DNA of 64,000 nucleotides from contig JBBPIG010000004.1 in NCBI GenBank assembly GCA_038040445.1, positions 80,190 through 144,189 on the forward strand, in the 5' to 3' direction. Within the stretch, counting starts at the first letter, position 1; each line of letters opens with the position of its first letter. A model generated the notes under the pieces. It had not been told where the DNA came from. It made no database searches and saw nothing but the letters and a program-made list of their open reading frames with translations. Position numbers and translations under genes: made by a program. The stretch is from Acidobacteriota bacterium. GTDB lineage: Bacteria; Acidobacteriota; Blastocatellia; UBA7656. Shown in pieces: positions 1 through 37,400 of the stretch.

Positions 1-96
1 GTCTCCGGTCCTCGGTCTCCGGTCCTCGGTCTCCGGTCCTCGGTCTCCGGTCCTCGGTCTCCGGTCCTCCGTCTCCGGTCCTCCGTCGTCGGTCAT
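1..96 (+). repeat. Heptamer array E1 (GTCNNCS units), right arm
   Basis: About thirteen tandem 7-base units, alternating GTCTCCG and GTCCTCG, so a 14-base super-period is visible. The array is cut by the window edge and only the pyrimidine-rich arm is seen. It ends about six bases before the ATG at 103 and occupies the place where a Shine-Dalgarno sequence would be. Confidence 0.95.
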
Positions 97-102
97 TTAC
101 TC

Positions 103-1191
103 ATGAAGATACTTGCGCTGATGCCTGATGCGTACCGCGGATTCGGTGGCATCGCCCAGTACAATCGAGACCTGCTGGACACGCTCTTAGCCTTGGACCG
201 TGTCGTCCAGGTTGTCTCGCTGACGCGGCATTACCCCGACCCTGATTCAGGACTTAAGCCGCCTCCGGAAAAACTCGTGCAGCACTTCTGTGCCAGCAGT
301 TCGGCGCGCTACGTGTTGGCGGCCTTGAGACACGGATTGAGCCTAAATCCGGACGTTATTCTATGCGGGCATATCAATCTGCTTCCGGTTGCCGCACTGC
401 TCAAGAGGCTCACACGCAGCTCCTTGATATTGGAGGTGTACGGCATCGAAGCCTGGGAACGCCGCCGTGGACTCCGCTCGTGGGGCACGAAGCAAGTGGA
501 CCTCGCGATAGCCATCAGCCGCTTTACACGCGAGCGGCTCATTCGCTGGTCGGGACTCGATCCACACCGAATAAAAATCGTTCCCAACGCAGTACACCTC
601 GATCGATACTCGAGTGGCGACAAACCCGGCTATCTAGTCGAGCGTTACGGGGTCGAGGGCAAACGGGTGCTGCTCACGGTCGGGAGGCTTCCGGGCCACG
701 AGCGCTACAAAGGGCAAGACCGAATCATCGCGCTGCTTCCGAAGCTGGCCGTCGAATTCCCTAATCTCGTTTACCTGATCGTCGGCGACGGGAGCGATCG
801 CGCTCGGCTCGAAGCGATGGTGGCGACGCTGGGTCTCGAGGAGCACGTAATCTTCGCTGGCCGGATTCGCGAAGACGAGAAGATCGATCACTACAATTTG
901 GCGGACGCGTTTGCGATGCCGAGCACCAGCGAGGGATTCGGCTTCGTGTTTCTGGAAGCAGCCGCCTGCGGCGTGCCAGTGTTAGGCGGAAGGAACGACG
1001 GCAGCCGGGATGCGCTGGTTGACGGGCGTCTGGGCGTGATGGTCGATGCCGAAAACCCTGGCGAGTTACTGAAGGGGCTGGAAGAAATATTGAAACGGGA
1101 GAAGTGCGTGCCTGATTGTATCAAGCCGTTCGGATTCCCGAGGTTCCAGAAGCAGGTGGAAGAGCTGGTGGGAACGACGGCCGACCGATGA
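103..1191 (+). CDS. Glycosyltransferase family 4 (GT-B fold)
   Basis: This 362-residue protein should transfer a sugar from a nucleotide donor onto the growing lipid-linked glycan at the cytoplasmic membrane. The N-terminal half has the glycine loop GFGGIAQYN near residue 14. The C-terminal donor domain has the GT4 E-x7-E signature, E277 and E285, within SEGFGFVFLEAAACG. The length is normal for GT4. The start is the only ATG fitting the MKILALMPD beta strand, and no Shine-Dalgarno precedes it because array E1 fills that space. The last residues (TTADR) and the TGA stop are encoded by array E2, so the native C-terminus has probably been replaced. Acceptor and donor cannot be read from the sequence. 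Confidence 0.9.
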   Translation: MKILALMPDAYRGFGGIAQYNRDLLDTLLALDRVVQVVSLTRHYPDPDSGLKPPPEKLVQHFCASSSARYVLAALRHGLSLNPDVILCGHINLLPVAALLKRLTRSSLILEVYGIEAWERRRGLRSWGTKQVDLAIAISRFTRERLIRWSGLDPHRIKIVPNAVHLDRYSSGDKPGYLVERYGVEGKRVLLTVGRLPGHERYKGQDRIIALLPKLAVEFPNLVYLIVGDGSDRARLEAMVATLGLEEHVIFAGRIREDEKIDHYNLADAFAMPSTSEGFGFVFLEAAACGVPVLGGRNDGSRDALVDGRLGVMVDAENPGELLKGLEEILKREKCVPDCIKPFGFPRFQKQVEELVGTTADR

Positions 1192-1354
1192 CCGGGGGAC
1201 GACCGGACCGCCGGCCGCCGACCGATGACCGATGACCGGGGGACGACCGGACCGCCGACCGCCGACCGATGACGGTCTCCGGTCGTTTTGTCGGTGCTCC
1301 GTCGCCGTCCTCCCGTCGTCCTCCCGTCGTCGGTCTCCCGTCGTCCGTCGTTTT
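1174..1354. repeat. Heptamer inverted array E2
   Basis: A left arm of GACCG/GACGACCGG-type units (about 1174-1271) is followed by a right arm of GGTCNNC/CGTCNNC units (1272-1354), an imperfect inverted repeat. A word of about 30 bases containing GATGACCGGGGGACG occurs twice in the left arm. The GATGACC unit supplies the TGA that ends the upstream glycosyltransferase. The right arm abuts the next ATG. Confidence 0.92.
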
Positions 1355-1717
1355 ATGACCTACAAGTTCCAGAAGCTCGAGACCTATCAGTTGGCGCTGG
1401 ACTATTTGGATCTCCTATACGAGTTAACAGCTCGCTTGCCCCGCAGCGAGGAGTACAACCTGAAGTCGCAAATGCCTCGCGCGGGGACTTCGATTGTGCT
1501 GAACATTGCTGAAGGTTCTACTAGCCAGACCGATCCAGAGCAGTTGCGCTTCCTGGGAATGGCTTTGCGCTCTTTCGTTGAAACGGTCGCCTGGCAGGAT
1601 GTGATCGAGAGGCGAAAGTACTTGAGCGGTGAAGATCTTCGGCCAGCTCGGGAGCTTGGCGAGAAACTATTCGCAAAGATCCAAGCGATGAGGAGAGCGC
1701 TGAAGATCGACCGTTGA
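1355..1717 (+). CDS. Four-helix-bundle protein (S23/IVS-protein family)
   Basis: A 120-residue all-helical protein of the family called four helix bundle protein, first known from ORFs in 23S rRNA intervening sequences. Family hallmarks are FQKLETYQLALD at the start, LPRSEEYNLKSQ and the conserved SIVLNIAEGS segment near residue 50. An open frame extends upstream to 1232, but that part is only array E2; the ATG at 1355 opens the conserved domain. The molecular role of these free-standing proteins is unknown. The gene is bracketed by arrays E2 and E3, which provide its 5' flank and its TGA stop, and it interrupts an exporter/glycosyltransferase operon. It could be a passenger gene. Confidence 0.85.
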   Translation: MTYKFQKLETYQLALDYLDLLYELTARLPRSEEYNLKSQMPRAGTSIVLNIAEGSTSQTDPEQLRFLGMALRSFVETVAWQDVIERRKYLSGEDLRPARELGEKLFAKIQAMRRALKIDR

Positions 1718-1848
1718 CGGTGCGATGACCGGCGACAGAAGACGACGGCTGACCGCTGACGGTCGCCGGTCATAGGTCTTCGGTCGTATTCGGTCTCCCG
1801 TCGGCCATCGCCGGTCGCCGGTCTTCCGTCGCCCCGTCATCCGTCATC
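1708..1848. repeat. Heptamer inverted array E3
   Basis: GACCGTTGACGG-type units form the left arm and give the stop codon of the four-helix-bundle gene at 1715-1717. From about 1760 the strand sense flips to GGTCGCC/GGTCTTC/CGTCATC units. The right arm ends directly against the ATG at 1849 (last unit CGTCATC), with no Shine-Dalgarno. Confidence 0.92.
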
Positions 1849-2670: not shown

Positions 2671-2818
2671 GGAAGACGGACGACGGAAGACGGGAGACGG
2701 ACGACGGGAGACGGGAGACGGACGACGGGAGACGGGAGACGGAAGACGGGAGACGGACGACGGGAGACCGTTGACCGACCCACGCTGCGGTCATCCGTCT
2801 TCGGTCGCCGGTCGCCCT
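2671..2818. repeat. Heptamer array E4
   Basis: It begins at the base after the permease stop. About fourteen purine-strand units (GGACGAC, GGGAGAC, GGAAGAC) run to about 2770. A short centre follows, then a brief right arm GGTCATC/CGTCTTC/GGTCGCC to about 2818. The left arm is much longer than the right, so the inverted repeat is asymmetric. Confidence 0.92.
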
Positions 2819-3324: not shown

Positions 3325-3404
3325 GATGTAGTTAACGTGGCATACGAGATAAAGCGGCAGTTCTCTGCACGAGGGTTACACGATCAGGTGCAGGCGCATC
3401 ACCC

Positions 3405-3441: not shown

Positions 3442-4815
3442 ATGTCCAACACAGTCATCACAGTCGAAAACCTCGGCAAGAAATACATCATCGGCCATCA
3501 AGCGAACGGCCATCGGACGCTTCGCGACGTGCTGGCAGACTCGCTCTCCGCGCCCTTCCGCTTGCTGAGACGGACGACGGACGACGGACGACGGGCGACG
3601 GCAGACGGTCCTCGGTCGTCCGTCTCCGGTCCTTCTTCCGGTCCTCAGTCGCCGGTCATCGGTCCTCCCCCCGGTCCTCCGTCGCCGGTCTCCGGTCGTT
3701 CCGAGGAGTTCTGGGCCTTGAAGGATGTGTCCTTCGACGTCAAGCAAGGCGAAGTAGTCGGCATCATCGGGCGGAACGGCGCGGGCAAGTCTACTCTGTT
3801 GAAGATCCTCTCGCGGATCACCGAGCCGACCACGGGCCGAGTTAGAATTCGAGGCCGCGTGGCGAGCTTGCTTGAGGTGGGCACCGGGTTTCATCCCGAG
3901 CTGACCGGCCGCGAGAACGTCTTCTTGAACGGCGCGATCCTCGGGATGAGCCGCGAAGAGATCAAGCGGAAGTTCGATGAGATAGTCGCGTTCGCCGAAG
4001 TCGAAAAGTTCCTGGACACGCCGGTCAAGCGCTACTCATCGGGGATGTACGTAAGGTTGGCTTTCGCTGTGGCCGCGCATCTCGAGCCTGAGATACTGAT
4101 TATCGATGAAGTGCTCGCGGTCGGGGATGCGCAGTTTCAGAAGAAATGCCTGGGTAAGATTGGCGACGTGGTGACCTCCGGAAGAACTGCATTGTTAGTA
4201 TCCCACCAGATGTCCGCAATTGAATCTTCTTGTACGCGCTGTGTGGTTTTGAACTCCGGCGAGATTAAGTTTGCTGGTACGACTGCCGATGCGATTCGGG
4301 TTTACAGTCGCGAGTTGGTTTCAACAATTGACTCCCAGGATAACGATCACATAAAACGAGTTGGCAATGGACTGGTCCGTTTTGCCTCATTTGGTCTTGA
4401 AGACGACTACGGACAGAGAATTTATTCTGCCGCGAGCGGAAAGCCGTTGACACTTGTGTTTGGCTACGAAGCGACTCCCTGTTCCGAGCGCTCGCTCTCT
4501 TTTGGTTTCTCGATCCACACAGTTACGGGTCAGGCAGTCTGCGTGCTGTATAGCGATTATCAGGGCATCACATTTAGCCCTGTATATGAACACGGCGTGT
4601 TGAAATTCACGACACCCAGGCTGATTCTAGCTGCTGGAACTTATTACGTCGCAGTGCGCCTACTGGTCAACGGCATAGAAACAGATTTTCCTAAGGATTT
4701 CGTGGGACGCTTCGACATAGACGCCGGCGACTTCTATGGCCAGGGAGTCGGTTTCCATGGAGGAAATGGCCCGGTATTAATTGAAGGAGAGTGGCAGCAT
4801 CTGGCAATCACATGA
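3442..4815 (+). CDS. wzt: Polysaccharide ABC transporter ATPase (Wzt-like) with repeat-encoded insert
   Basis: The 457-residue ATPase should energise Wzm. Walker A is at residues 110-117 (GRNGAGKS), the ABC signature YSSGMYVRLA near 198, and Walker B ILIIDE near 217-222. From about residue 290 there is a beta-sandwich Wzt C-terminal domain of the kind that recognises modified glycan ends (TLVFGYEATP, then FHGGNGPVLIEGEWQ). Residues 43-87 are not ABC sequence: they are the translation of heptamer array E5, rich in R, T, D, G, S and P, placed in the loop between the first strand region and EEFWALKDV. The frame stays open, so the protein is probably functional with a disordered loop. The stop overlaps the next ATG (ATGA). 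Confidence 0.93.
   Translation: MSNTVITVENLGKKYIIGHQANGHRTLRDVLADSLSAPFRLLRRTTDDGRRATADGPRSSVSGPSSGPQSPVIGPPPGPPSPVSGRSEEFWALKDVSFDVKQGEVVGIIGRNGAGKSTLLKILSRITEPTTGRVRIRGRVASLLEVGTGFHPELTGRENVFLNGAILGMSREEIKRKFDEIVAFAEVEKFLDTPVKRYSSGMYVRLAFAVAAHLEPEILIIDEVLAVGDAQFQKKCLGKIGDVVTSGRTALLVSHQMSAIESSCTRCVVLNSGEIKFAGTTADAIRVYSRELVSTIDSQDNDHIKRVGNGLVRFASFGLEDDYGQRIYSAASGKPLTLVFGYEATPCSERSLSFGFSIHTVTGQAVCVLYSDYQGITFSPVYEHGVLKFTTPRLILAAGTYYVAVRLLVNGIETDFPKDFVGRFDIDAGDFYGQGVGFHGGNGPVLIEGEWQHLAIT
3567..3700. repeat. Heptamer inverted array E5 inside wzt
   Basis: Left arm GACGGAC units to about 3607, right arm GGTCNNC/CGTCNNC units from 3608 to 3700. It lies wholly within the coding sequence and encodes about 45 residues. 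The net length must be a multiple of three relative to the ancestral gene, although each unit is seven bases. Confidence 0.93.
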
Positions 4816-5489
4816 ACATAGTCGTCCGTAAGTTTGTTTCTGGGTACCGCCTGCTAACCCACCTGCTGCATCCGCATCTAATTCGCTTTCGTTGCAGGAC
4901 GCGCATTCCTCAATATTATTTAATTGATGGCTGGTTATCCGAAACTGAGGCGCTTGCTTTGTACGATCTTGCCCGAAGTTTGAAGAAAGATGCTTCGGTT
5001 CTTGAAATCGGCGTTTGGCAAGGAAAAAGCACTTATTGCCTTGCTCGTGGTCTCAGTGGCGGCACGGTTACTGTCATCGATCCTTTTAATGCTGATGGAG
5101 GAGCAGATGCAGATAGTGAGGCCGTCTATAGAGAAATACAGAAGGAAAAACAACTTGATCTGCTTGAGACGTTTCAAAGAAATCTTGAGCGGGGCAAAGT
5201 AGCCTCAAAGGTTAAGACGCTCCGCGGGTATTCTCAACAGTTCGTTGGTTCCGTGCCGGCGATCGACTTACTGTTCATAGATGGCGACCATTCCATCGAA
5301 GGATGTTCATTTGATTTCGACGCATATCAAGACGCTGTTCTTCCCGGCGGCTATTTGCTCTTTCACGATTACGATCCAAGTCGCTCGAATCTTGGACCAA
5401 CATGGGTTGTTCATAACAAGGTACTACCTTCTGGGAGATATAAACCCCTTAGAGTCTTAGAAAGCTTATGGGTCGGCCAGCGCACTTGA
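4812..5489 (+). CDS. Class I SAM-dependent methyltransferase (Methyltransf_24 type)
   Basis: 225 residues. SAM-binding motif I is VLEIGVWQGKSTYCLA, followed by the acidic strand TVIDPFNADGG and the later strand IDLLFIDGDHSIEG with the characteristic GDH, as in Methyltransf_24 proteins of glycan clusters. An open frame reaches back to a GTG at 4791, but the ATG at 4812 forms an ATGA overlap with wzt and is preferred. The probable role is methylation of a sugar or glycan terminus, which the adjacent Wzt C-terminal domain could read. That functional link is inference. Codon use is visibly more AT-rich than in wzm/wzt. Confidence 0.8.
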   Translation: MNIVVRKFVSGYRLLTHLLHPHLIRFRCRTRIPQYYLIDGWLSETEALALYDLARSLKKDASVLEIGVWQGKSTYCLARGLSGGTVTVIDPFNADGGADADSEAVYREIQKEKQLDLLETFQRNLERGKVASKVKTLRGYSQQFVGSVPAIDLLFIDGDHSIEGCSFDFDAYQDAVLPGGYLLFHDYDPSRSNLGPTWVVHNKVLPSGRYKPLRVLESLWVGQRT

Positions 5490-5581
5490 CTTAGCAAAGA
5501 TACGAGCATTCCAGTGGAACCAAGCCTCTCGTCGCCGAACTCTGCCAGTAGAAAGTTATCCGTCGAATCTAAAGTCGCCGT

Positions 5582-6298
5582 ATGAGTCTAATAAAAAGGG
5601 CAACTAGACACTTTGTTAAAGAGCGGCTCAGTCCTCACCATCCGCGTGAGCAGACCATAAAAGGTGTTGTGTCCAAGCAGTACATTAAACGATTTATTCC
5701 TGATGACCCTATAATTGTTGAGGCTGGCGCCCACTTAGGCTGGGACACAATAGAAATGAGCACGCTGTGGTCTAAGGGTATTATCCATGCCTTCGAACCA
5801 GTTCCTGATCTGTATGGTCACCTCCAAGAAAACACGAACGGGCTGGAGAATGTTAGGTTGTACCCGTGTGCCTTAAGCGACAAGACAGGCATTGCGAATC
5901 TGTTTGTCAGTAGCGGTTCCTCAGACGCATCCAGCTCTCTACTACGTCCGAAGGAGCACTTGTCTGAACATCCCACGGTATATTTCGAGGAGGCAATCGA
6001 TGTCCCTACCATCACCCTGAACCAATGGGCTAAAGAAAATCGGGTGGAAAAGGTTGATCTGCTATGGCTGGATATGCAGGGCTATGAACTCGCAATGTTA
6101 AGAGCGTCTTGCGAACTGCTAAGAACTGTCAGTGCTATTTACACCGAGGTTAGCCTTAAAAAATTATACGAAGGTACACCACTTTATTCTGAAGTTCGCG
6201 AATGGTGTGAAGAACAGGGCTTCGAGGTAGAACGGGAAGAGCTAGCTTGGGCAGACGCGGGTAACGTGCTTTTCGTCAGGAACAAGAATGTCTTCTGA
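5582..6298 (+). CDS. FkbM family methyltransferase
   Basis: 238 residues. FkbM features are the first motif IIVEAGAHLGWDTIEMS near residue 45, HAFEPVPDLYGHLQEN, and VDLLWLDMQGYELAML near residue 160. These enzymes O-methylate sugars or polyketides using S-adenosylmethionine. The ATG at 5582 has no clear Shine-Dalgarno. The 3' end overlaps the next glycosyltransferase by 11 bases, so both are co-translated. The gene belongs to the AT-richer block from 4.8 kb onward. The substrate is probably a sugar of the exported glycan. Confidence 0.85.
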   Translation: MSLIKRATRHFVKERLSPHHPREQTIKGVVSKQYIKRFIPDDPIIVEAGAHLGWDTIEMSTLWSKGIIHAFEPVPDLYGHLQENTNGLENVRLYPCALSDKTGIANLFVSSGSSDASSSLLRPKEHLSEHPTVYFEEAIDVPTITLNQWAKENRVEKVDLLWLDMQGYELAMLRASCELLRTVSAIYTEVSLKKLYEGTPLYSEVREWCEEQGFEVEREELAWADAGNVLFVRNKNVF

Positions 6299-7304: not shown

Positions 7305-7405
7305 GGTGCGTCGCCGTCGTAGAAGAATACATCACCGGCTCTAGGCGGCTTAGTGATCGACGGTGCGGCGCTTGGTGCCACGTAGCATAATCAATCTAGA
7401 GAGCG

Positions 7406-8449: not shown

Positions 8450-8502
8450 TCTCGCGCAGGTTATTCGAAGAGTTATCCGATCCCGCCGAATCGGTTACCT
8501 GA

Positions 8503-9195: not shown

Positions 9196-9247
9196 CAGCT
9201 TCACTAATCAACCTCACTAGGTCACGTAAAGAATCCGAAACTTCTAT

Positions 9248-10210: not shown

Positions 10211-10217
10211 AGGTTGA

Positions 10218-13196: not shown

Positions 13197-13200
13197 CTGT

Positions 13201-13280
13201 CTGCTAAGAGCAAAGAGCCAAGTGCAAAGAGCAAAGGGCAAAGAGCTAGGTGCCCTTTGGCCTTTGCTCCCTGCTCTAGC
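13201..13280. repeat. GNRCNAA heptamer hairpin
   Basis: Six tandem 7-base units (GAGCAAA, GAGCCAA, then GTGCAAA, GAGCAAA, GGGCAAA, GAGCTAG) at 13208-13249 are followed by three complementary-strand units (TTTGGCC, TTTGCTC, CCTGCTC) at 13256-13276. The layout is the same two-arm heptamer design as the GTCNNC arrays but with a different word. It starts four bases after the methyltransferase stop. Confidence 0.8.
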
Positions 13281-13285
13281 TAACT

Positions 13286-13348
13286 ATGTGCGGAATAAGC
13301 GGCTGGTGTCTTAAGCTTTTCGATGGTCATTGTTGGAAGGTAAACTGA
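13286..13348 (+). pseudogene. Remnant of an asparagine synthase 5' end
   Basis: A 20-codon ORF beginning MCGISGW, identical to the first seven residues of the intact AsnB at 14232, including the catalytic Cys2 context. It then degenerates and stops at 13346-13348. Third positions differ (GGA/GGC, ATA/ATT, GGC/GGT), so it is not a fresh copy of the nearby gene. It is probably the left end of another asnB homologue, left when the segment carrying the FkbM gene was exchanged. Confidence 0.65.
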
Positions 13349-13350
13349 CA

Positions 13351-15998: not shown

Positions 15999-16819
15999 CA
16001 ACGGAAGAAGGGCGAGGAGAGACAGACGACCGAACGACCGGGGACCGGGGACCGCGGACCGACCGACCCACCGCCGTCTTCGGTCGTCCGTCTTCGGTCG
16101 CATTGGTCGGCATTCTGTTGCCGTTCGTCGTAGCGATTGCTCTCTGCGCTTTTGCCTCGATCTGGCCGCTGCGACTCGACGCGCGAGCTCTTCAGGACTT
16201 GAGCAAAGTTGAGAGCCTGGGCCTCCCTCAATCGTCTGGCGAGTTCATCTTCCTGTCGCGCGACAACAGCGTCGAGAGCGCGCGCACGGCGACGTTTGGT
16301 CTGCGGCAGCTTGCGTTCCCCAATGGCACGGTGTTCTGGGCGGCGTTGAAGGCACAGTGTATCGGACCCTGGTTGGGAGGGTTCGCCGCAATCGACCAGG
16401 CTGGTAACGCCTTTCTAATCTCGGGCGGCGCGGACGGAGAGTGGCAGTGGGCGCCGGCACACGAGCTAGCGAACGAAGCGCGCTCGCGAAGCGCCACGAG
16501 TTTCGTGGTCTACGACTCATATCAAACGCGAGCGCTCTTTGAACAGCGATGGCCGTTCTTGAAAGCGAGCAGCAAGGTCGCCGTGCTTACTGATGGCCTG
16601 GTGATGCGTCGAATTCCGTTTGATCGCGACGCGATTCCGCTGGCGCCGGGCGAGGCGAGGGCGATGCTCGCCGACGCAGGCTTCACTATGATAGGGACGC
16701 GGTATCGATTTTATTTTCCAAAGATGTTGTCGGCGTTGCGGCCGCTTGAACGCTTCGCCGAGCGGATGCCGCTCGGAGCGCAGTATTGCGTTCTTGCTCG
16801 CAAACCAGCGAATCTCTAA
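15995..16819 (+). CDS. Chimaeric membrane-anchored protein of unknown function
   Basis: 274 residues. Residues about 8-38 are translated from heptamer array E6. One membrane span follows (ALVGILLPFVVAIALCAFAS). The next 170 or so residues match nothing I recognise. The last 45 residues, MLADAGFTMIGTRYRFYF through LGAQYCVLARKP, resemble the C-terminal end of Methyltransf_11-type enzymes without their SAM-binding core. It may be a fusion left by deletion or an unrecognised family. The start is the ATGA overlap with asnB. The stop overlaps the next ATG (TAATG), so it is embedded in the operon and translated. Confidence 0.55.
   Translation: MTTEEGRGETDDRTTGDRGPRTDRPTAVFGRPSSVALVGILLPFVVAIALCAFASIWPLRLDARALQDLSKVESLGLPQSSGEFIFLSRDNSVESARTATFGLRQLAFPNGTVFWAALKAQCIGPWLGGFAAIDQAGNAFLISGGADGEWQWAPAHELANEARSRSATSFVVYDSYQTRALFEQRWPFLKASSKVAVLTDGLVMRRIPFDRDAIPLAPGEARAMLADAGFTMIGTRYRFYFPKMLSALRPLERFAERMPLGAQYCVLARKPANL
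16018..16110. repeat. Heptamer inverted array E6 inside a coding region
   Basis: Left arm GACCGGG/GACCGAC-type units to about 16071, then right arm CGTCTTC/GGTCGTC units to about 16110. It encodes the T/D/R/P-rich N-terminus of the protein starting at 15995, immediately before its membrane span. Confidence 0.85.
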
Positions 16820-23433: not shown

Positions 23434-24350
23434 GATCTGCGCCTCCTTCGATTTCGATTGTGGTACCGACTTACCGGCGAGAGAAAGTCTTATTGGATAC
23501 GATCGACTATCTTGTGAGGCTCGACCCGGGCGCGGTCGAGGTACTTGTCGTTGATCAGACGGAGGAGCACTCATCCGAGACCGCTGTTGCGCTGAGCGAG
23601 CTAGCGAGTACAGGAATGATTCGGTGGGTGCGTCTCTCGCAGCCTTCGATACCGCACGCGATGAACGTCGGCTTGATTGAAGCGAAACAGGACGTGGTCC
23701 TATTCCTGGATGATGACGTGATTCCGAGCGCCAACCTGATCGGGGCGCACGCACGAGCTCACCAGAATGGTTGGAACATTGTAGCGGGACAGGTCCTGCA
23801 ACCAGGGGAAGAACCGGATCTAGAGTCGGGCACCTCGAATACGTTTCGGTTTTGCTCTTGTACCTCTAGATTAATCACGGAAGTGATGGGTGGGAACTTC
23901 TCAACAAAACGAAAGTTGGCGCTAAAGGTCGGAGGGTTTGATGAGAATTTCGTGCATGCAGCCTATCGCTTTGAAGCTGATTTCGCGGCGCGTGCCCTCG
24001 CGGCCGGCGAGAGGATTTACTTTGAGCCCGAGGCGAGCATTCGCCACCTGAAAGCAACCATGGGTGGAACTCGTTCGTACGGCAATTACCTTACCACTAT
24101 CAAGCCAAGCCACGCGGTCGGCGACTACTATTACTTGCTTCGCGCGAAACAAGTCCATCGCCGCGTACTGAAGATGCTTTGGCGGCCCTTGCGAGCAGTT
24201 AGAACCAAACATCACCTCAGACATCCTTGGTGGATCCCAGGAACGCTAATCGCCGAACTCTGGGGCTTCTTATGGGCGGTCGCTCTAGCGGCCAGAGGTC
24301 CGCGTCTGATCGGGACGGATGACCGACGACGGAGGACCGTAGACCGATGA
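23430..24350 (+). CDS. Glycosyltransferase family 2
   Basis: 306 residues from a GTG overlapping the previous stop. SISIVVPTYRREKVLLDTID, VLVVDQTEEHSSET and the metal site LFLDDDVIPS near residue 92 are present. VMGGNFSTKRKLALKVGGFDENF and the later H-L-K region are typical of rhamnosyltransferase-like GT2 enzymes. The last ten or so residues (DDRRRTVDR) and the TGA are read from heptamer array E7, so the C-terminus has been replaced by element sequence. Confidence 0.87.
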   Translation: MRSAPPSISIVVPTYRREKVLLDTIDYLVRLDPGAVEVLVVDQTEEHSSETAVALSELASTGMIRWVRLSQPSIPHAMNVGLIEAKQDVVLFLDDDVIPSANLIGAHARAHQNGWNIVAGQVLQPGEEPDLESGTSNTFRFCSCTSRLITEVMGGNFSTKRKLALKVGGFDENFVHAAYRFEADFAARALAAGERIYFEPEASIRHLKATMGGTRSYGNYLTTIKPSHAVGDYYYLLRAKQVHRRVLKMLWRPLRAVRTKHHLRHPWWIPGTLIAELWGFLWAVALAARGPRLIGTDDRRRRTVDR

Positions 24351-24380
24351 CCGTCGCCCACATCGTCAGTCGTCGGTCCT
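24314..24380. repeat. Heptamer inverted array E7
   Basis: A perfect ten-base stem, GACCGACGAC at 24321-24330 and its complement at 24369-24378, is flanked by further heptamer units. The left arm encodes the C-terminus and stop of the upstream glycosyltransferase. The right arm ends about ten bases before the ATG at 24390. Confidence 0.88.
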
Positions 24381-24389: not shown

Positions 24390-25898
24390 ATGACTGATCT
24401 GGAAGTTTATTCCATTCTTGTCATCGTCCTTGCGTTGTGTGTCGCGAACTGGCGGGCGGGCGTTTCCATCTGTTTATTGGTGGGCTTCCTTCAGGACCCG
24501 TTGCGGAAGCTGATGCCGGGCGAGCCTGTCTATTTCACGGCGCTGGTTGGCGCGCCGTTGCTGGCAACGTTGATCGGCGCGCACCTGCGCAACGTTCGCA
24601 TCAGTTTTCGCCCCGTCCATTCGTGGAGTAGTGTCCTGCGCACGCCGCTGAATCTGTTCATACTTCTCGTCGGGATTCAGAGCGTCGCTGCCGTCATCAA
24701 AACCGGAAACCCAACCATCGGCGCAATCGGTGCGCTGTCGTATCTGGCGCCGCTCCCCGCCATTTTGCTGGGATATCAATTCAGCAGAAGCGAGCGGGAC
24801 ATCGTCAAGCTCATCAAGTTTTATTTGGTGGCCGGCATCGTGATGCTATCCGGAATATACCTATCGTATGTGGGCTATGACTGGACCGCACTCAAGGCTG
24901 TCGGCGAAGGGTTGTTCATCTACTCTGTCGAAAAAGGGCGGCTGGATCTCTATTCTGGTTTTCTTCGCAGTCCGGAGATCGCGGCGTGGCACGCGGCCAC
25001 GTGCGTATGCCTGCTCATAATTTTGTCTCTTTCGATTCGACGCAACCGAATACTCAAATGGAGCTCGGGTGGTTTGGTGGTGTTTCTAATGGGCGCTCTT
25101 TTGTTGACGGGACGGCGCAAGTTTATTGTGGAAATTGTGGTGTTCGCTTCCATCTATGCGCTCTTGCTGATCTGGTTCCGAAGGTCGGCGTTCAAATCTG
25201 CGCTCGTATCCAGCTCAGCCCTTCTTCTTGCGGCTGGCCTGGTAATGGGATCGGTTAGCTACATGTACATCGCCTCCGATGTCGCCACAACTGAGTTTCT
25301 CCCGTATTACGAGCGCGGCGCGAGCGTGCGAACCGACGTGTCAAAGCGGGTGTCAGTGATGACCCTAGATTCCTTCCAATATGTGATAGCGCAAAACGGG
25401 ATTCTGGGCTCGGGGGCGGGAACGGGTAGTCAAGGCGCTCAGCATTTCGGCGGCGGGGCCAACATTGTGGGCGGAGCGGCAGAGGGCGGGCTCGCGAAGG
25501 TGTTGGCCGAGCTTGGCATTCCGGGGCTGATCTTGCTGCTGTGGCTGGTAATAAGTCTGGCCCGTTACATGTGGTCGATCATTCTGTACATAACGTTCGT
25601 GAGAGAGGTGGACCCCGCGTTGTCGAAGCTGATCTTTGGATTGGTGGCGTTCCTGATGACTAATGGGTTCGTGTACACCACCGCCCACCAGGTGTTCGGA
25701 GACCCGTTTGTGCTGATCGTCCTGGGATTCTTCCTTGGGTTCGTGATGGCAATGCCGAAGATGCTGATGCGAAAGACCGACGACCGAAGACGGACGACGG
25801 GAGAGATCGACCTGCGGCAGACGGTCCTCCGTCGCCCGTCTCCGGTCCCCGGTCTCCGGTCGTCCGTCGTCGGTCCCCCGTCATCCCATAAGCAATGA
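24390..25898 (+). CDS. O-antigen ligase/polymerase-like membrane protein (Wzy/WaaL family)
   Basis: 502 residues with about ten to twelve hydrophobic spans, a long periplasmic loop after residue 290 (YYERGASVRTDVSKR, then NGILGSGAGTGSQGAQHFGGG) and a glycine-rich conserved segment typical of the Wzy_C/O-antigen ligase fold. It could polymerise repeat units or ligate the glycan to its acceptor. With a Wzm/Wzt exporter present, a ligase or an exosortase-type role is as likely as polymerase. The C-terminal 41 residues (from about residue 462) are translated from heptamer array E8. No Shine-Dalgarno precedes the ATG. Confidence 0.8.
   Translation: MTDLEVYSILVIVLALCVANWRAGVSICLLVGFLQDPLRKLMPGEPVYFTALVGAPLLATLIGAHLRNVRISFRPVHSWSSVLRTPLNLFILLVGIQSVAAVIKTGNPTIGAIGALSYLAPLPAILLGYQFSRSERDIVKLIKFYLVAGIVMLSGIYLSYVGYDWTALKAVGEGLFIYSVEKGRLDLYSGFLRSPEIAAWHAATCVCLLIILSLSIRRNRILKWSSGGLVVFLMGALLLTGRRKFIVEIVVFASIYALLLIWFRRSAFKSALVSSSALLLAAGLVMGSVSYMYIASDVATTEFLPYYERGASVRTDVSKRVSVMTLDSFQYVIAQNGILGSGAGTGSQGAQHFGGGANIVGGAAEGGLAKVLAELGIPGLILLLWLVISLARYMWSIILYITFVREVDPALSKLIFGLVAFLMTNGFVYTTAHQVFGDPFVLIVLGFFLGFVMAMPKMLMRKTDDRRRTTGEIDLRQTVLRRPSPVPGLRSSVVGPPSSHKQ
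25775..25886. repeat. Heptamer inverted array E8 at the wzy-like 3' end
   Basis: Left arm GACCGAC/GACGACG units to about 25830, right arm CGTCNNC/GGTCNNC units to 25886. It is read as the protein tail of the membrane protein. The stop codon overlaps the ATG at 25895. The right arm leaves no room for a Shine-Dalgarno sequence. Confidence 0.9.
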
Positions 25899-28639
25899 AA
25901 GTCGCGGTTGTTTCGCCTCACCCAATTCAATACCACACACCGTGGTTTCAGAAGCTCGCGGCTCAGGAGCACGTTGACCTGAAAGTTTACTACGCGCTTT
26001 TGCCCGACCAGCGGCAACAGGGTGTCGGGTTTGGCGAAGCTTTCGCCTGGGACATTCCGCTGCTTGAAGGCTATGACTGGGAGCTGATTCCCAACAAAAG
26101 AAGATCGCCGAGCCTGCGAGGCTTTTTTCGAAGCAGCACCCCGGCTATCTATTCACTGCTTGCCCGGGCAAAGCCCGATGTCGTGATCATCACCGGATGG
26201 CAGGCGCTGCCATTGCTGCAAGCGCTATGGGCGGCGATCAGGCTCGGAATCCCGCGCATAGTCCGAGGAGAATCCAACGGCTTGCGACCGAGGCCCTCGC
26301 CGGTTCGAGCTTTACATCGGCTGCTGCTCTCGCGGTTCGATGCGTTCCTGGCAATCGGCAAGCTGAATCGCGAGTTCTATCTTCAGTACGGCATCCCGGA
26401 CGAACGTGTTTTCTCCTGTCCGTACTTTGTGGACAACGATCGCTTCGCGGCCCAGCTCGTTGGGGATGCCGTCGAACGCGACTCCTTGCGCGCCGGATGG
26501 AACATCGACGACGGGCGACCGGCGACCGAAGACCGGCCTCGGGTCTGTTTTCTTTTTGCGGGAAAGCTGGAGCCGAAGAAACGAATAATGGATCTGCTGC
26601 GAGCGATGGACGTGGCTCGGCGGAAGTGTCCTTCGATTCACCTGCTGGTGGCCGGCGCCGGCGAGCTGATGGATGAGGCTCGACAGTTTGCGGAGAGTCG
26701 CAGCCTACCGGTCACTTTCGCGGGCTTCTTGAATCAGTCACAGATCACTCGCGCTTATGCAGCCGCCGATTGTCTGGTGTTGCCTTCGGATCACGGTGAG
26801 ACGTGGGGTCTGGTGGTGAACGAGGCGATGGCTTGTGGTCTCCCCGCAATCGTGAGCGACCAAGCCGGTTGTGGTCCCGATCTGGTTGAAGAAGGCGTCA
26901 CCGGTGGCGTCTTCCCGTGTGGAGACATCAACGCACTTGCGCTAAAGATTCAAGCGTTCGCTTCGGATCCTGAACAGCTTGCTCGCATGGGGGAGCAAGC
27001 CAGGCAACGAATCAATAACTACTCTGTTGAACGGGCGGTTCAGGGCACAATGCGGGCGCTCGAGTTCGTGACAAGCGCCGGGCGACGGACGACAGACGAC
27101 GGGCGAGAGACGACGGGGGACGGGCGACGGACGACAGACGACGGGCGACGGGTGACGGGCGACGGGCGATTGACGACAGACGACGGACGACGGACGACGG
27201 AGGACGGAGGACGGACGACGGTCCACCGTCATCTGTCCCCGGTCTCCGGTCGCCCCTCGGTCCACCGTCATCTGTCCCCGGTCTCCGGTCGGTCCTCGGT
27301 CGTCGGTCCTCGGTCCTCCCTGCGCGTTCTCCACGTGATTCCCTCCATGTCTTCGAGAGACGGCGGGCCAAGCTTTGCCATGCCGTTGATCGCTCGAGGG
27401 CTTCAGCGCGCGGGAGTCGTGGTTGATGTGGCGACTACGGTAGGAGACCAGGAAGCCGCGACGCTTGGCGCCGATCTCGACGGACCCGTGAGGAGCGAGG
27501 GAGTGAGCTACTTCAACTTTCGCCGGCAGTCTGAGTTCTACAAGGTTTCGTTTCCGTTATCGAAATGGCTTTCCGCCCACGTTCGGGACTACGACCTCGT
27601 TCACATACACGCCCTGTTCTCGTATTCGAGCTATGCCGCTGCAACTCTGGCAGCTAAGAACGGGGTGCCTTACATCGTCAGACCGCTTGGCGTGTTGAAT
27701 CGCTGGGGCATGCAGAACCGCCGAAGGTTGCTGAAGCGGCTTTCGTTCCGCTTTATCGAACAGCGCATAATACGCAACGCCGCGGCAATCCACTACACCA
27801 GCCAGCAGGAGAAGCTCGAAGCCGAGGAAGCGGGCGTTAGAAATCAATCAGTGGTGATTCCTCTCGCGGTTGACCTGTCAGGGTTTCGTGAGTTGGGGGG
27901 GCCTGAAAGATTCTATGAGAAGTTCCCTCGCGCGCGCGGCAACGACATCATCTTGTTCCTGTCGCGGCTCGACCCAAAGAAGGGGTTGGATCTATTGCTG
28001 CGCGCATTCGCGACGGACAACCGAAGACGGACGACCGGAGACGGACGGCGGACTTTGCTTGTGATAGCGGGGGAGGGCGACGCGCAGTTTGTAGAGGGCT
28101 TGCGTAGACTGGCGGAGGAACTGCGGATCGCCGACGCGATTCTGTGGACCGGGTTTCTTGACGGCGAGGATAAGTTGTCCGCGATGGCCGCAGCATCGTT
28201 GTTTGTTCTGCCTTCTTACTCGGAGAACTTCGGCATCGCGCTTGTCGAAGCAATGGCCGCGGGGCTGCCGTGTGTGATGTCGGATCAGGTGGGGATAGCG
28301 GTTGACGCAAAGGAATACGACGCGGGGTTGGTGGCGCCATGCGAGGCCGGGCTGGTGGCTTCTGCGATGCGGCGCCTGATCGACGATCCCGAGCTGCGCG
28401 GTCGTCTCGGCGCCAACGCGCGCCGCCTTGCCGATGATCGCTTCTCGGTGGAGGCAATGACCGATTCGCTGGTAAAGCTTTACGATCGGGTTCTGTCTCG
28501 GGCGACGGGAGACCGGAGACCGGAGACGGGAGACCGGGGCAAGATGACCGTAGACCGGGGACAGACGACGGCCGACCGGGGACCCGAGAGCGCCCGTCGT
28601 CCGTCGTCCGTCGTCCGTCAGATCAACCAGCATGTCTAA
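25895..28639 (+). CDS. Fusion of two GT4 glycosyltransferases through a repeat-encoded linker
   Basis: 914 residues, about twice the family length. Domain 1 (about 1-395) begins KVAVVSPHPIQYHTPWFQKL and has ETWGLVVNE (E-x7-E). Domain 2 (about 476-868) begins LRVLHVIPSMSSRDGGPSFA and has ENFGIALVE (E-x7-E). Residues 396-475 are the translation of array E10, with R/T/D/G heptapeptides then a duplicated 13-residue unit VHRHLSPVSGRPS. Smaller arrays add residues 204-215 (E9) in domain 1, 706-720 (E11) in domain 2, and the tail 869-908 (E12). Both catalytic signatures are intact, so a bifunctional enzyme making two successive linkages is plausible. Readthrough created by array expansion is the inferred origin. 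Confidence 0.9.
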   Translation: MKVAVVSPHPIQYHTPWFQKLAAQEHVDLKVYYALLPDQRQQGVGFGEAFAWDIPLLEGYDWELIPNKRRSPSLRGFFRSSTPAIYSLLARAKPDVVIITGWQALPLLQALWAAIRLGIPRIVRGESNGLRPRPSPVRALHRLLLSRFDAFLAIGKLNREFYLQYGIPDERVFSCPYFVDNDRFAAQLVGDAVERDSLRAGWNIDDGRPATEDRPRVCFLFAGKLEPKKRIMDLLRAMDVARRKCPSIHLLVAGAGELMDEARQFAESRSLPVTFAGFLNQSQITRAYAAADCLVLPSDHGETWGLVVNEAMACGLPAIVSDQAGCGPDLVEEGVTGGVFPCGDINALALKIQAFASDPEQLARMGEQARQRINNYSVERAVQGTMRALEFVTSAGRRTTDDGRETTGDGRRTTDDGRRVTGDGRLTTDDGRRTTEDGGRTTVHRHLSPVSGRPSVHRHLSPVSGRSSVVGPRSSLRVLHVIPSMSSRDGGPSFAMPLIARGLQRAGVVVDVATTVGDQEAATLGADLDGPVRSEGVSYFNFRRQSEFYKVSFPLSKWLSAHVRDYDLVHIHALFSYSSYAAATLAAKNGVPYIVRPLGVLNRWGMQNRRRLLKRLSFRFIEQRIIRNAAAIHYTSQQEKLEAEEAGVRNQSVVIPLAVDLSGFRELGGPERFYEKFPRARGNDIILFLSRLDPKKGLDLLLRAFATDNRRRTTGDGRRTLLVIAGEGDAQFVEGLRRLAEELRIADAILWTGFLDGEDKLSAMAAASLFVLPSYSENFGIALVEAMAAGLPCVMSDQVGIAVDAKEYDAGLVAPCEAGLVASAMRRLIDDPELRGRLGANARRLADDRFSVEAMTDSLVKLYDRVLSRATGDRRPETGDRGKMTVDRGQTTADRGPESARRPSSVVRQINQHV
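26506..26537. repeat. Heptamer array E9 (left arm only)
   Basis: Four to five GACGACG/GACCGGC-type units within domain 1 of the fused glycosyltransferase, in the loop before the strand RVCFLFAGK. It adds about eleven residues. No right arm is present. Confidence 0.8.
27080..27319. repeat. Heptamer inverted array E10 (gene-fusion linker)
   Basis: The largest array in the window. The left arm is about twenty GACGACG/GACGGGC units (27080-27219), the right arm about fourteen GGTCNNC units (27220-27319). The right arm includes a 39-base word present twice (from 27220 and 27259). The frame is open throughout, joining two glycosyltransferase domains. Translation shows a seven-residue period, as expected for 3 x 7 bases. 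Confidence 0.95.
28011..28053. repeat. Heptamer array E11 (left arm only)
   Basis: Six GACGGAC/GACCGGA-type units inside domain 2 of the fused glycosyltransferase, between the conserved helix ending LLLRAF and the strand TLLVIAGEG. The tract adds about fourteen residues to a loop that normally has two or three. Confidence 0.8.
28501..28619. repeat. Heptamer inverted array E12
   Basis: Left arm GACGGGA/GACCGGA units to about 28600, a short right arm of CGTCGTC-type units to 28619. It encodes most of the C-terminal tail of the fused glycosyltransferase and ends about twelve bases before the ATG at 28632. Confidence 0.9.
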
Positions 28640-29613: not shown

Positions 29614-29678
29614 GGACGGATGACCGACGACGGAGGACGGGTGACCGTCGCCTGTCGTCCGTCGTCGGTCATCCGTCC
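29614..29678. repeat. Perfect heptamer hairpin E13
   Basis: A 21-base arm at 29614-29634 (starting GGACGGATGACC) is exactly complementary to 29658-29678, with a 23-base centre that continues the pairing with two mismatches. This is the cleanest palindrome of the GTCNNC family. It lies in the 86-base gap between a dehydratase and a glycosyltransferase. No T-tract follows, so it does not look like a classical intrinsic terminator. Confidence 0.93.
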
Positions 29679-29686
29679 AACAGCGT

Positions 29687-32318: not shown

Positions 32319-34468
<2,150 letters not shown>

Positions 34469-34473
34469 TTACC

Positions 34474-35751: not shown

Positions 35752-35791
35752 TCTGTCCGCTCCTTGAAGCCCCTTTGCAGTTACCGGGGAA

Positions 35792-37366
35792 ATGCCAGGG
35801 TGTCACATGACAGTAACGTATCTCGGCGTATTCGTAGCCGCCGTTCTAGTCTCATTTCTTCTTACGCGCAGCGTTCGCAACATCGCCAACTCGCGAGGCT
35901 GGGTCTACGCTCCGCCCTCCTCCCGGCATATACACAAAGACTTGATCCCTCGTCTGGGAGGAATCGCGATATTCATCGCCTTCGCGGTCATCGCGATAGC
36001 GCTGATAGCGATTCCGAGCTTGCCGGGTCTGGAAGCGGCGCTTTCGCGGCGAACCGTTCTGTATCTTCTGGCGCCCGCCATGCTCGTGTTTCTGTTAGGG
36101 CTGTACGATGACTTCAAACCCCTGAAGCCGCAGGTGAAGTTCGCCGTGCAAGGTGTTGCCGCGACGCTGCTGTTTTTCGGAGGCTTCGGAGTCTTTCAAC
36201 TGCCGCTGCTGTTTGGATCGCATACCCCCGGGTGGCTGGCGCTGCCTTTGACCATACTGTGGGTCTTATGGATCACGAACGCCTTCAATCTGCTCGACGG
36301 TGTGGACGGGCTGGCGGCCGGGTCGGCCTTGTTCTCGACCGTTACGGTGTTCGTCATTTCGTTGGTCAGCGGCAATTTTCTGGTCTCGTCACTGACACTT
36401 GCACTCGCGGGCGCGATTCTAGGATTCCTTCGCTTCAACTTCAATCCCGCGACGATTTTTCTTGGCGACAGCGGCAGCCTGTTTATCGGCTTCATGCTGA
36501 GCGCGCTTGCATTGGCGGGCGCGCAGAAGACTCCGACCATCGTAGCCGTAGCCATTCCGGTCGTCTCGTTCGGTCTGCCGGTTCTGGAAACAGTGTTGTC
36601 GGTGCTTCGCCGATTCCTTAATGGCCAGCCGCTGTTTGCAGCGGATCGCCAGCACATTCATCACAAACTCCTCGAGCGCGGCTTTTCTCAGCAGCAGGTC
36701 GTGGTGATTCTCTATGTGGTCTCTGCCATCTGCGGGCTGCTGAGCATCTTCCTCTTGTATCCTTCGGGCCCGATGGTTGGGATAGTGCTCTTCGTCATAG
36801 GCACGGGGATCTGGGTGGGCGTGCAGCATCTGGGCTATCACGAGTTCGTTGAGCTCGGCCGAGTCGCGATGCGCACGATGGACCAAAAGAAAATCATCGT
36901 CAACAATCTGGCGATTCGCCGAGCTACGGAAGCGCTGTCGAAATCGCAGGATTTCGAGGGCGTTGAACGAGTCCTAAGAGACGCATTTGAAGGTAACGAC
37001 TTCGACGGGTTTGATCTGAGGTTTGCGCCCCCACTTGCCTATGAACACAGCAACGGCGCACAACTCGAGTGGCAAAAACCAAACGGGGCGCGAAACGAAG
37101 GCGCCGCCGATTCCCAATGGACCCTTACTCTCGATTTGAAAAACACAAGCGGCCAGCGGCTCGGGGATTTCTCGCTTTATCGCAGATGCAACGGCTCGGC
37201 GCTGCTGGTGGACATCAATCTTCTTGTCTCCGGATTTAACGCCGCCCTGTCCGGCGCTTTGGACCGAGCGGCTCAGAACGCGGCTCGCGGACCAGAGTCC
37301 GCAAAGCAATCGGCGGACAGCCAGACTAAAGTAGGCGTCCGGCCGGACAGGCGAGCCGAAGCCTGA
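35792..37366 (+). CDS. Undecaprenyl-phosphate sugar-1-phosphate transferase (WecA/TagO/MraY family)
   Basis: 524 residues. About ten membrane spans hold IHKDLIPRLGGIAIF, the catalytic GLYDDFKPLKPQ, NAFNLLDGVDGLAAGS (N-x2-N-x2-D-G) and FLGDSGSLFIGF; HIHHKLLERGF is the terminal loop. It should start glycan assembly by moving a sugar phosphate, probably HexNAc-1-P, to undecaprenyl phosphate on the cytoplasmic face. About 150 residues follow the last span; this cytoplasmic extension (from FVELGRVAMRTMDQKK) is longer than in WecA (about 365 residues total) and is not recognised. The ATG at 35807 is an alternative start. Confidence 0.9.
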   Translation: MPGCHMTVTYLGVFVAAVLVSFLLTRSVRNIANSRGWVYAPPSSRHIHKDLIPRLGGIAIFIAFAVIAIALIAIPSLPGLEAALSRRTVLYLLAPAMLVFLLGLYDDFKPLKPQVKFAVQGVAATLLFFGGFGVFQLPLLFGSHTPGWLALPLTILWVLWITNAFNLLDGVDGLAAGSALFSTVTVFVISLVSGNFLVSSLTLALAGAILGFLRFNFNPATIFLGDSGSLFIGFMLSALALAGAQKTPTIVAVAIPVVSFGLPVLETVLSVLRRFLNGQPLFAADRQHIHHKLLERGFSQQQVVVILYVVSAICGLLSIFLLYPSGPMVGIVLFVIGTGIWVGVQHLGYHEFVELGRVAMRTMDQKKIIVNNLAIRRATEALSKSQDFEGVERVLRDAFEGNDFDGFDLRFAPPLAYEHSNGAQLEWQKPNGARNEGAADSQWTLTLDLKNTSGQRLGDFSLYRRCNGSALLVDINLLVSGFNAALSGALDRAAQNAARGPESAKQSADSQTKVGVRPDRRAEA

Positions 37367-37400
37367 GAGACGACCGGCGACCGATGACCGACGACCGGCA
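37366..37400. repeat. Heptamer array E16 (left arm only)
   Basis: About five GACGACC/GATGACC units immediately after the transferase stop, ending two bases before the stop of the convergent peptidase gene at 37403. It is the last GTCNNC-family array seen in the window. Confidence 0.85.

Follow-up and report, generated by a model that had tools for sequence, protein, structure and literature searches.

The window, a stretch of 64,000 nucleotides from an Acidobacteriota bacterium, contains many tandem arrays of heptamers. These arrays are very probably the terminal inverted arms of a small mobile element carrying an IVP gene, together with copies of it that are mostly gene-less and resemble MITEs. 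In all likelihood the gene for the IVP/S23 four-helix-bundle protein is the sole gene of that mobile element. We are somewhat inclined to regard the IVP protein also as the mover of the heptamer-armed elements.

Runs of at least three SGTCNNC or GNNGACS units were found 32 times in positions 1-37400 of the window and not once in positions 37401-64000. Thirty simulations under a first-order Markov model gave a mean of 0.0 such runs for the window. The SGTCNNC arrays are real and far above chance. The runs form 15 clusters with at least four units, plus 28023-28043 with three units, which agrees with the sixteen sites listed in a preliminary description of this DNA. The two-armed layout reported there for most arrays was seen as well, usually with the purine-rich arm first and the pyrimidine-rich arm second. 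As judged by eye, the arrays at 26507, 28012 and 37369 have a single arm, and the array at 24312 has a degenerate second arm. The remaining 26.6 kb, which had been described as array-free, is indeed devoid of SGTCNNC runs but holds the GATCGAG/GATAGAA array at 39714-39813. This array and an AAGAGCA array are the two two-armed arrays of other heptamers in the window ( Table 1 ).

Ten of the window arrays were folded as RNA. Seven were more stable than their shuffles (z from -2.6 to -10.6), and three showed no clear excess of stability (z of 0.14, -0.51 and -1.62). Where arrays lie within genes of the window, the reading frame is open and kept in this assembly. A CRISPR-like array was rejected, since by eye the spacers lacked regularity. 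The window gave no matches in Rfam and tRNA scans, and with no Rfam match at the gathering score a 23S rRNA location of the window's IVP element was not supported. A purine-type array is located a short way outside the window start (G000:C4:79937-80033).

Table 1. Heptamer arrays and the IVP gene in the 64-kb window.
Position	Strand	Feature	Remarks
1..90	+	pyrimidine arm, 12 SGTCNNC units	
1177..1352		array 5' of IVP gene	own purine arm 1180-1274, pyrimidine arm 1325-1352
1355..1717	+	IVP gene (PF05635 23S_rRNA_IVP / S23), 120 aa	Pfam profile
1700..1848		array 3' of IVP gene	purine arm then pyrimidine arm
2671..2816		two-armed gene-less array, 15 + 4 units	directly 3' of TGA stop; fold z -3.5
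3565..3702		two-armed array, in frame within ABC-transporter ATPase gene (ABC_tran, Wzt_C)	hairpin stability not in excess, z 0.14
13206..13280		two-armed array, other heptamer family (AAGAGCA)	fold z -2.7
16018..16104		two-armed array close to 5' end of ORF 15947-16819	fold z -2.6
24312..24380		two-armed array, degenerate second arm, gene 3' end	fold z -1.6
25773..25888		two-armed array, 3' end of gene weakly matching Wzy_C	Wzy_C 29.7 bits, under 31.7 cut-off; fold z -3.6
26507..26536		one-armed array, in frame within glycosyltransferase gene	
27079..27318		two-armed array, in-frame 80-residue linker joining two glycosyltransferase modules	
28012..28047		one-armed array, in frame, second glycosyltransferase module	
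28497..28623		two-armed array, gene junction	fold z -0.5
29615..29680		two-armed hairpin array, near-perfect	-59.9 kcal/mol, z -10.6
33307..33340		short GGTCGAC array close to gene 3' end	
34290..34466		two-armed array, gene junction	fold of 34340-34460: z -5.1
37369..37397		one-armed array just 3' of stop codon, ORF 35792-37366	
39714..39813		two-armed GATCGAG/GATAGAA array	family of IVP element L032, contig C1; z -8.7

The window IVP protein matched PF05635 with 88.3 bits (cut-off 33.8). Its AlphaFold model has four helices (pLDDT 94.5), and the closest solved structures are 2gsc and 2rld, followed by Avd. The TMq to 2gsc is 0.82-0.88, the fold being a four-helix bundle as in the solved members of PF05635. 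The gene sits between arrays, and the remaining arrays of the window are without such a gene. Each side of the gene carries a two-armed array instead of a single arm; nesting must therefore be assumed. Three pairs of IVP genes with dS of 0.9-1.2 gave dN/dS of 0.10-0.14, indicating purifying selection in these pairs, and the remaining pairs were uninformative (0.86 at dS 0.012; 0.26 at dS 2.4).

Inverted heptamer arrays bracket IVP genes across bacteria, and the heptamer differs between most elements. We compared 112 IVP loci from many phyla, 35 from this and related genomes and 77 named loci, after three of 80 named loci with less than 250 bp on one side had been dropped. A further 35 IVP loci were obtained from viral contigs and stood outside this comparison. 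Alignment A3 covered 38 of the 80 named loci; among those left out were L132 (internal stop), L139, L116 and L153. Lag-7 periodicity of at least 27/35 in either flank was found at 18 of the 35 loci from the source genome and its relatives, and at 23 of the 77 named loci, compared with 3/35 and 5/80 at random positions. No periodicity was found in the IVP flanks at lags 2-6. The inverted similarity of the two flanks averaged 25.8, against 10.6 for swapped flanks. It exceeded the 95th percentile of the swapped flanks at 99-100 of the 112 loci (two runs) and the 99th percentile at 67, whereas 8 of 115 random positions exceeded the 95th percentile. Complementary termini around the S23 ORF are thus found at the level of the class; 12 of the 112 loci showed no significant arms, and by eye arms were absent from the IVP gene of Calothrix sp. 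PCC 7716.

Closely related Nostocales plasmids, on which IVP genes bear STRR-like heptamer arms, differ in whether an insertion occupies a given junction. The same junction was found empty, filled, decayed, or with a gene-less version, and at the polymorphic sites the arms and the IVP gene occur together or are missing together. Three insertions, at stop or start codons, are flanked by short direct duplications (5, 5 and 3 bp). The duplication lengths over all sites were 5, 5 and 3 bp and, in a fourth case, no more than 1 bp, with site C unclear and nrd ambiguous, and the duplications were clearer at sites A and B than at B2, C and nrd. Such a variable length is unlike a classic transposase. 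Arm length changes by one or two whole heptamers: the near-identical copies L325/L360 differ by 14 bp and L348/L369 by 7 bp, which lends indirect support to slippage, as proposed earlier, here in whole heptamers.

The gene-less copies are mobile and multi-copy. One of them was inserted into an IVP gene, a nested jump. A gene-less element of 181 bp recurs at 98 places across 43 plasmid records, and 28 of these places contain 80% or more of it. Dispersed copies, common terminal inverted repeats and polymorphic sites, the features of MITEs, were all observed on the Nostocales plasmids.

In the 1.188 Mb sampled from the 6.75-Mb genome, heptamer arrays of any sequence formed 95 clusters. Fifteen of them lie in C4:77563-120000, which overlaps the locus, a roughly fivefold higher density than in the remaining sample. 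The local surplus reflects the bloom of a single heptamer family in the vicinity of its own IVP gene. The window's heptamer gave 45 + 61 overlapping four-unit matches across the genome and 25 + 16 in the reversed control, which is not small. The unit is thus not confined to the locus. The proposed glycan link was not supported. IVP elements or arrays also occur in the actC-actD interval, upstream of hisS and between accB and accC (gene names by eye), as well as between nrdB and nrdA, between cas6 and cas4 and adjoining virB10-type genes. Genome G001 is not counted for hisS, since the stretch read there is downstream of the gene, at a locus cut off by the contig end. Since the arrays are spread over the sampled part of the genome, a glycan-specific function was rejected.

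Most sampled array runs of this genome match its own IVP arms, which supports the earlier suspicion of an unknown element as their builder. Of 127 runs outside IVP elements, 66% matched the arms of the genome's own six IVP genes at a cut of 12. Sets of six foreign IVP genes matched on average 8% (relatives) or 15% (named loci), and in neither case did any of 1000 draws reach 66%. The share without an own-IVP match, 34% at this cut, rises to 57 of the 127 runs at the stricter score of 15 used for family assignment. For 11 of the 18 IVP-less relatives, 357 kb yielded 2 array runs, whereas 400 kb from 10 of the 39 relatives bearing IVP genes, an IVP-rich set, yielded 39. Since this set was hand-picked for long contigs and a high number of IVP genes, the contrast is non-random and confounded by kinship.

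Instead, an unrelated transposase might use the arms as its sites in trans, with IVP as a passenger or regulator. This explanation competes only with IVP as the mover, not with the identity of the arms, and it seems rather unlikely, though it is the strongest of the alternatives. No catalytic site is evident in the IVP protein, and among solved structures its closest relatives either have no known function or are Avd, a partner of a reverse transcriptase. In addition, the interior of the 181-bp gene-less element differs from that of the IVP elements, so another enzyme could move it. On the other hand, the IVP elements inspected contain no second gene between the arms. The purifying selection on IVP in three pairs and the agreement of the heptamer families with this genome's own IVP genes also speak against this alternative.

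It is improbable that a reverse transcriptase acting in trans retrotransposes an IVP RNA hairpin, as might be imagined from Avd in diversity-generating retroelements; this also concerns the mover only. The Avd-like fold (TMq 0.73-0.81) and the variable duplication length would fit, and RVT_1 was matched in 12 of 17 IVP-bearing genomes, the source genome included. No reverse transcriptase was found among the 20 window ORFs scanned. The other five of the 17 genomes gave no RVT_1 match, including two that are rich in PF05635 matches (G008 with 9 and G036 with 17). The idea that an RVT_1 reverse transcriptase must be present somewhere in the genome was rejected on this ground.

Selected regulatory RNA hairpins or terminators, acting on mRNA stability, translational coupling or G-quadruplex control, are a quite improbable origin of the arrays. 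When ORFs were placed by the longest-ORF rule without gene prediction, 48% of 93 clusters lay within 30 bp of long-ORF 3' ends, against 9% at random. Most of the arrays folded did so well, and regulatory roles have been proposed, in the portions of the literature available to us, for STRRs, G. metallireducens and xanthomonads. However, 29% of the 93 clusters fall wholly inside long ORFs. In relatives the corresponding junctions carry other heptamers or no array at all, and the empty sites contradict a regulatory function as the origin; regulation could coexist as a side effect. Least probable of all, and largely refuted by the joint presence or joint absence of arms and gene, is that hairpin-assisted polymerase slippage made the arrays as simple-sequence repeats, IVP genes being only tolerated in the same spaces: close copies do differ by whole heptamers, the available part of PMC4692102 cites slippage for the heptamer excess, and in the IVP-less genome G038 (94% completeness; outside the 11-genome sample) the window's heptamer gives 18 four-unit matches, but the two flanks of an IVP gene share one heptamer in inverted form, the runs match the genome's own and not the relatives' IVP genes, and arrays are nearly missing from the IVP-less genomes sampled.

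For the preferred explanation, an element armed with heptamers and carrying IVP, we propose the following course. The Avd-like IVP protein would bind the arms of its own element and, in trans, those of gene-less relatives. It may then guide the elements, as DNA or as RNA hairpins, into new sites with the help of host enzymes. Surviving insertions would lie mostly at stop codons, with the upstream stop kept, or at loop-coding positions. RNase III probably cleaves the predicted RNA hairpin of the element, as it does in 23S rRNA intervening sequences. Slippage and hairpin-templated copying may continually rewrite both arms together.

There is perhaps an even chance that these elements are a bacterium-wide selfish class without a recombinase of its own, in which an Avd-like four-helix protein and lineage-rewritten heptamer arms spread copies lacking the gene to stop codons and protein loops, and which is the common source of 23S rRNA intervening sequences, STRRs and the heptamer excess. 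We found no link joining these three in the open-access literature. The abundance of seven-base repeats in bacteria has been open since at least a 2007 survey, according to the part of PMC4692102 available, and the present reading would offer an explanation for repeats that have gone unexplained for decades. It would give the roles of STRRs and S23/IVP one testable cause, name a candidate mobility factor, and reveal an abundant class of intergenic parasites that reshape operon junctions and put in-frame linkers into enzymes.

Known systems resemble these elements in part. The 23S rRNA intervening sequences of Coxiella and others carry a gene of the same family by name, and their complementary termini likewise form a long stem. 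In Coxiella, two to three GACAGAT heptamers, strain-variable in number, lie 5' of the gene (PMC4990558, in part). The known ones lie within rRNA genes and are excised by RNase III. IVP elements, in contrast, occupy genes or the junctions of mRNA genes; they are present in many copies, are accompanied by gene-less relatives and show signs of mobility. REPIN/RAYT and bacterial MITEs have a recognised nuclease, such as the Y1 tyrosine nuclease of RAYT, or a transposase, and termini constant within the family. They share with IVP elements the short palindromic non-autonomous copies and the single protein gene; IVP elements differ in the four-helix-bundle protein and the mostly element-specific heptamer. 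The Drosophila foldback transposon FB has long terminal inverted repeats made of short tandem repeats. The same is described for Galileo, another Drosophila foldback, in the accessible portion of its literature. Unlike IVP elements, these transposons are eukaryotic, and Galileo has a P-type transposase.

Cyanobacterial STRRs are intergenic tandem heptamer arrays with hairpins, as are the arrays here, although their descriptions, in the parts available, mention no gene and no mobility. The earlier contrast with STRRs is not supported, since a hairpin-forming STRR (PMC2670836) and two-armed sites in Xanthomonas (70 and 75 in two genomes; PMC4692102) are on record in the available parts of these papers. 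The GGGAATC repeats of Xanthomonas, GGACCGG of Geobacter and TAACTGA of Beggiatoaceae are also mostly intergenic heptamer arrays. Proximity to stop codons is likewise recorded for Xanthomonas in the part seen. Unlike here, these repeats have been read as G-quadruplex or regulatory elements, and heptamer repeats are generally not found with mobile elements, as stated in the available text of PMC4692102. In a pattern search preset by this literature, GGGAATC runs occurred in one of 369 genomes from one class. That genome has one IVP gene, and the arms of this gene are GGGAATC.

Runs of at least three SGTCNNC/GNNGACS units numbered 32 in the first 37.4 kb of the window and 0 in the remainder; 30 Markov simulations gave a mean of 0.0. 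The runs formed 16 clusters, the number of arrays counted in the preliminary description, and the absence of such arrays from the last 26.6 kb held for runs of this length. The 20 ORFs scanned in the first 37.4 kb mainly encoded glycosyltransferases, ABC export, sugar epimerases and similar functions. The odd one out was a gene for 23S_rRNA_IVP (hereafter IVP; Table). Since a two-armed array stands on each side of this gene, later nested insertions must be assumed. The G+C content of window 4001-14000 was 48-51%, against 56-61% in the surroundings, which suggests a recent acquisition within the locus. Short tandem repeats of 12 and 32 bp (38335-38369 and 53566-53633) were unrelated to the heptamers.

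Table. Features in the window and occupants of two orthologous junctions (G-numbers, relatives' genomes; gene names assigned by eye)
Feature	Position or genome	Description
Two-armed array	13206-13280	different heptamer
Two-armed array	39714-39813	different heptamer
23S_rRNA_IVP gene	1355-1717	120 aa; PF05635, 88.3 bits (cut-off 33.8); between two arrays
Junction after actC	own genome	IVP element
Junction after actC	G001 (congener)	empty
Junction after actC	G005	gene-less TTAGATG array
Junction after actC	G016	GCAGAAG array
Junction after actC	G019	AGTGGTC array
Junction after actC	G008	9-bp array
Junction after actC	several others	empty
Upstream of hisS	own genome	IVP element
Upstream of hisS	G004, G005, G006	arrays, other heptamers
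Upstream of hisS	G002	empty
Upstream of hisS	G003	degenerate array at most

PF05635 had six matches in the own genome, five over the curated cut-off. The search of relatives covered 58 genomes, and 40 of them, counting the own genome, had one match or more. By eye, inverted tandem repeats, usually of 7 bp, flanked nearly all of 35 IVP genes on both sides, and the heptamer varied between most of these elements. At least 80 named loci (from titled database records) were found; the first 80 matches were listed, and 77 were used in the lag and 112-locus tests. Titles among the matches listed included Planctomycetes, Proteobacteria, Acidobacteria, Chloroflexi, Clostridia, Bacteroidetes groups, candidate-phyla bacteria, a cyanobacterium and others. 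Periodicity in the flanks of the named loci among the matches listed peaked at lag 7 and its multiples. A lag-7 score of at least 27/35 in either flank was reached by 18 of 35 loci of the first set (random positions, 3 of 35) and by 23 of 77 named loci among the matches listed (random, 5 of 80); at lags 2-6, none in these two sets reached it. A minority of elements had 9-bp or 8-bp units (L050, L064, L168, L036; L116, L142, L155).

On average, the upstream flank scored 25.8 when compared with the reverse-complemented downstream flank of the same locus, and 10.6 with those of other loci. With the named loci among the matches listed, this inverted similarity exceeded the 95th percentile at 99 of 112 loci and the 99th at 67; a rerun with a new draw gave 100 of 112 over the 95th, against 8 of 115 random positions, and 12 of 112 loci lacked significant arms. 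The 5' arm contained 35% G and 14% C, with G exceeding C in 92 of 100 arms, so that the element on each strand tends to start with a purine-rich arm. Viral contigs of IMG/VR held 35 IVP loci (L066-L100). IVP elements with GCGAATG-type arms (L054, L056, L058) lay, by eye, within a DNA methylase-like gene; the insertion point was similar in genomes from two families. In Anabaena sp. 90, an IVP gene (L349, 1983-2351) occupied the cas6/cas4 junction of a type I-D cas operon.

The 1.188 Mb sampled from the own genome contained 133 lag-7 runs (95 clusters); counts at lags 4-6 and 8-13 ranged from 0 to 11. After exclusion of the three IVP elements in the sampled part, 127 runs remained, and 66% of these matched an arm belonging to any of the six IVP genes in this genome (score at least 12). 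Control sets of six IVPs averaged 8% (relatives) and 15% (named, among the matches listed), and 0 of 1000 draws from either source reached 66%. At score 16 the values were 54% for the own IVPs, 2% for relatives and 4% for named IVPs among the matches listed; at the family-assignment cut of 15, 57 of the 127 runs had no match. Eleven IVP-less relatives had 2 runs in 357 kb and ten IVP-rich ones 39 in 400 kb, a contrast between hand-picked genomes that is confounded by kinship. A counter-example is G038, which lacks IVP and yet has 18 matches to four units of the window's heptamer.

The preliminary description had tied the arrays to the polysaccharide locus. The window lies at C4:80190-144189 of the 6.75-Mb genome, and 12 of the 20 GACGACC runs lay at C4:77-118 kb, surrounding their own IVP gene. 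The simplest reading of the association is a local bloom, not polysaccharide function. Of the GATAGAG runs, 5 of 7 lay within about 8 kb of their IVP on contig C1. The GGGTTC and AAAATTG families were dispersed, the contigs holding their IVP genes being hardly sampled.

Among 93 clusters, 48% lay within 30 bp of the 3' end of a long ORF (random, 9%) and 35% within 30 bp of a 5' end (random, 8%). Their overlap with long ORFs was 0.35, against 0.85 for random stretches, and 29% were entirely within one long ORF. At orthologous junctions the occupant differed between genomes (Table), G001 being read at the actC one; in the own genome the second arm now forms the start of actD.

Filled and empty sites were compared on Nostocales plasmids. 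At site A the flanks shared 96-98% identity, and the four plasmids that lacked an insertion had the sequence AAAAAGTAATTAACAAATAA. In three others, one from Scytonema and two from Trichormus that were identical to each other, arms and IVP lay between two copies of GTAAT, which includes the upstream stop codon. A Nostoc record (C052) retained a decayed remnant, and in the more distant Brasilonema the position was taken by a two-armed array of GGAGTCA that has no gene. At site B, L350 (empty) and L351 (filled) were 96.8% identical over the matched part. What set them apart was the element together with 5 duplicated bases, TTCTA, which cover two bases of the stop codon TAG; one more base was lost beside it, and the filled copy stops at TAA. 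The duplication at site B2 was 3 bp, ATG, the start codon of the following gene. At site C the insertion cost the gene about a dozen codons, and no duplication was clear. Such variation in duplication length would argue against a transposase with a fixed stagger. Among the plasmids compared at site D, two were filled, one was empty and another bore an array lacking the gene. Near-identical copies differed by 14 bp (L325/L360) and 7 bp (L348/L369), that is, by whole heptamers.

An IVP gene that is whole in L351 and L363 is interrupted in L364 by a gene-less element of 181 bp, with a duplication of 1 bp at most. This element occurred at 98 places in 43 plasmid records; 28 of the places retained 80% or more of its length. 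Two pieces of it, together 43%, matched the Trichormus IVP element at 94.9%. Hence, gene-less copies move. In Nostoc edaphicum, an IVP element (L327, 2983-3351) lies between nrdB and nrdA, its gene antisense to the operon; the junction in the related Calothrix NIES-4105 is empty.

Within the window, the arrays at 3565, 26507, 27079 and 28012 were in-frame inside ORFs, as was that at 16018, provided the start at 15947 is correct. One formed an 80-residue linker joining two glycosyltransferase modules, another an insertion before the ATPase core of an ABC exporter; other arrays make up gene ends. Such positions may be likened to the rRNA loops that tolerate intervening sequences (IVSs). The 914-aa ORF at 25895-28639 consists of two glycosyltransferase modules fused via an in-frame array; gain or loss of units in a number other than a multiple of three would put it out of frame.

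The window IVP was predicted to be a four-helix bundle (pLDDT 94.5). Its closest structural matches were XCC0516 (2gsc) and BT_0352 (2rld), followed by Avd of diversity-generating retroelements (TMq 0.73-0.81, E 0.07 to 0.8). For three pairs at a suitable distance, dN/dS values of 0.10-0.14 show purifying selection on IVP; pairs nearer or farther apart were uninformative. RVT_1 matched in 12 of 17 IVP-bearing genomes (own included) and had no match in 5, so a reverse transcriptase of that family seems not to be needed everywhere. It is plausible that IVP binds the arms and chaperones a hairpin insertion that host enzymes would carry out.

In the available part of PMC4990558, the Coxiella 23S rRNA IVS is described with a stem of 28 bp, a gene for S23p and a GACAGAT repeat that varies in copy number among strains; that of PMC11270868 describes IVP genes in rRNA insertions of candidate-phyla bacteria. 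In the open-access papers listed we found no link between IVP/S23 genes outside rRNA and heptamer arrays, though such a paper could exist. The '23S rRNA IVP' in a figure legend of a clustering study of CRISPR-like systems (PMC10910872, seen in part) may have been taken in because of its flanking heptamers. As far as the accessible text describes them, the cyanobacterial STRRs (PMC2670836) and the heptamers of Geobacter (PMC2700814), Xanthomonas/Nostoc (PMC4692102) and Beggiatoaceae (PMC4679880) look like the same arms minus the gene, a likeness checked for the Xanthomonas heptamer in one genome. This heptamer, GGGAATC, is reported in the part of PMC4692102 seen as frequently two-armed, near stop codons and generally not associated with mobile elements. 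The prediction for GGGAATC was fixed beforehand by the literature. The 369 genomes searched, all of one class, centred on a genome of Bowmanella, which we take to be a gammaproteobacterium; GGGAATC runs occurred in one of them. The single IVP gene of that genome has GGGAATC arms on both sides. It lies, by eye, at an accB/accC-like junction, and its match stops early, at profile position 64.
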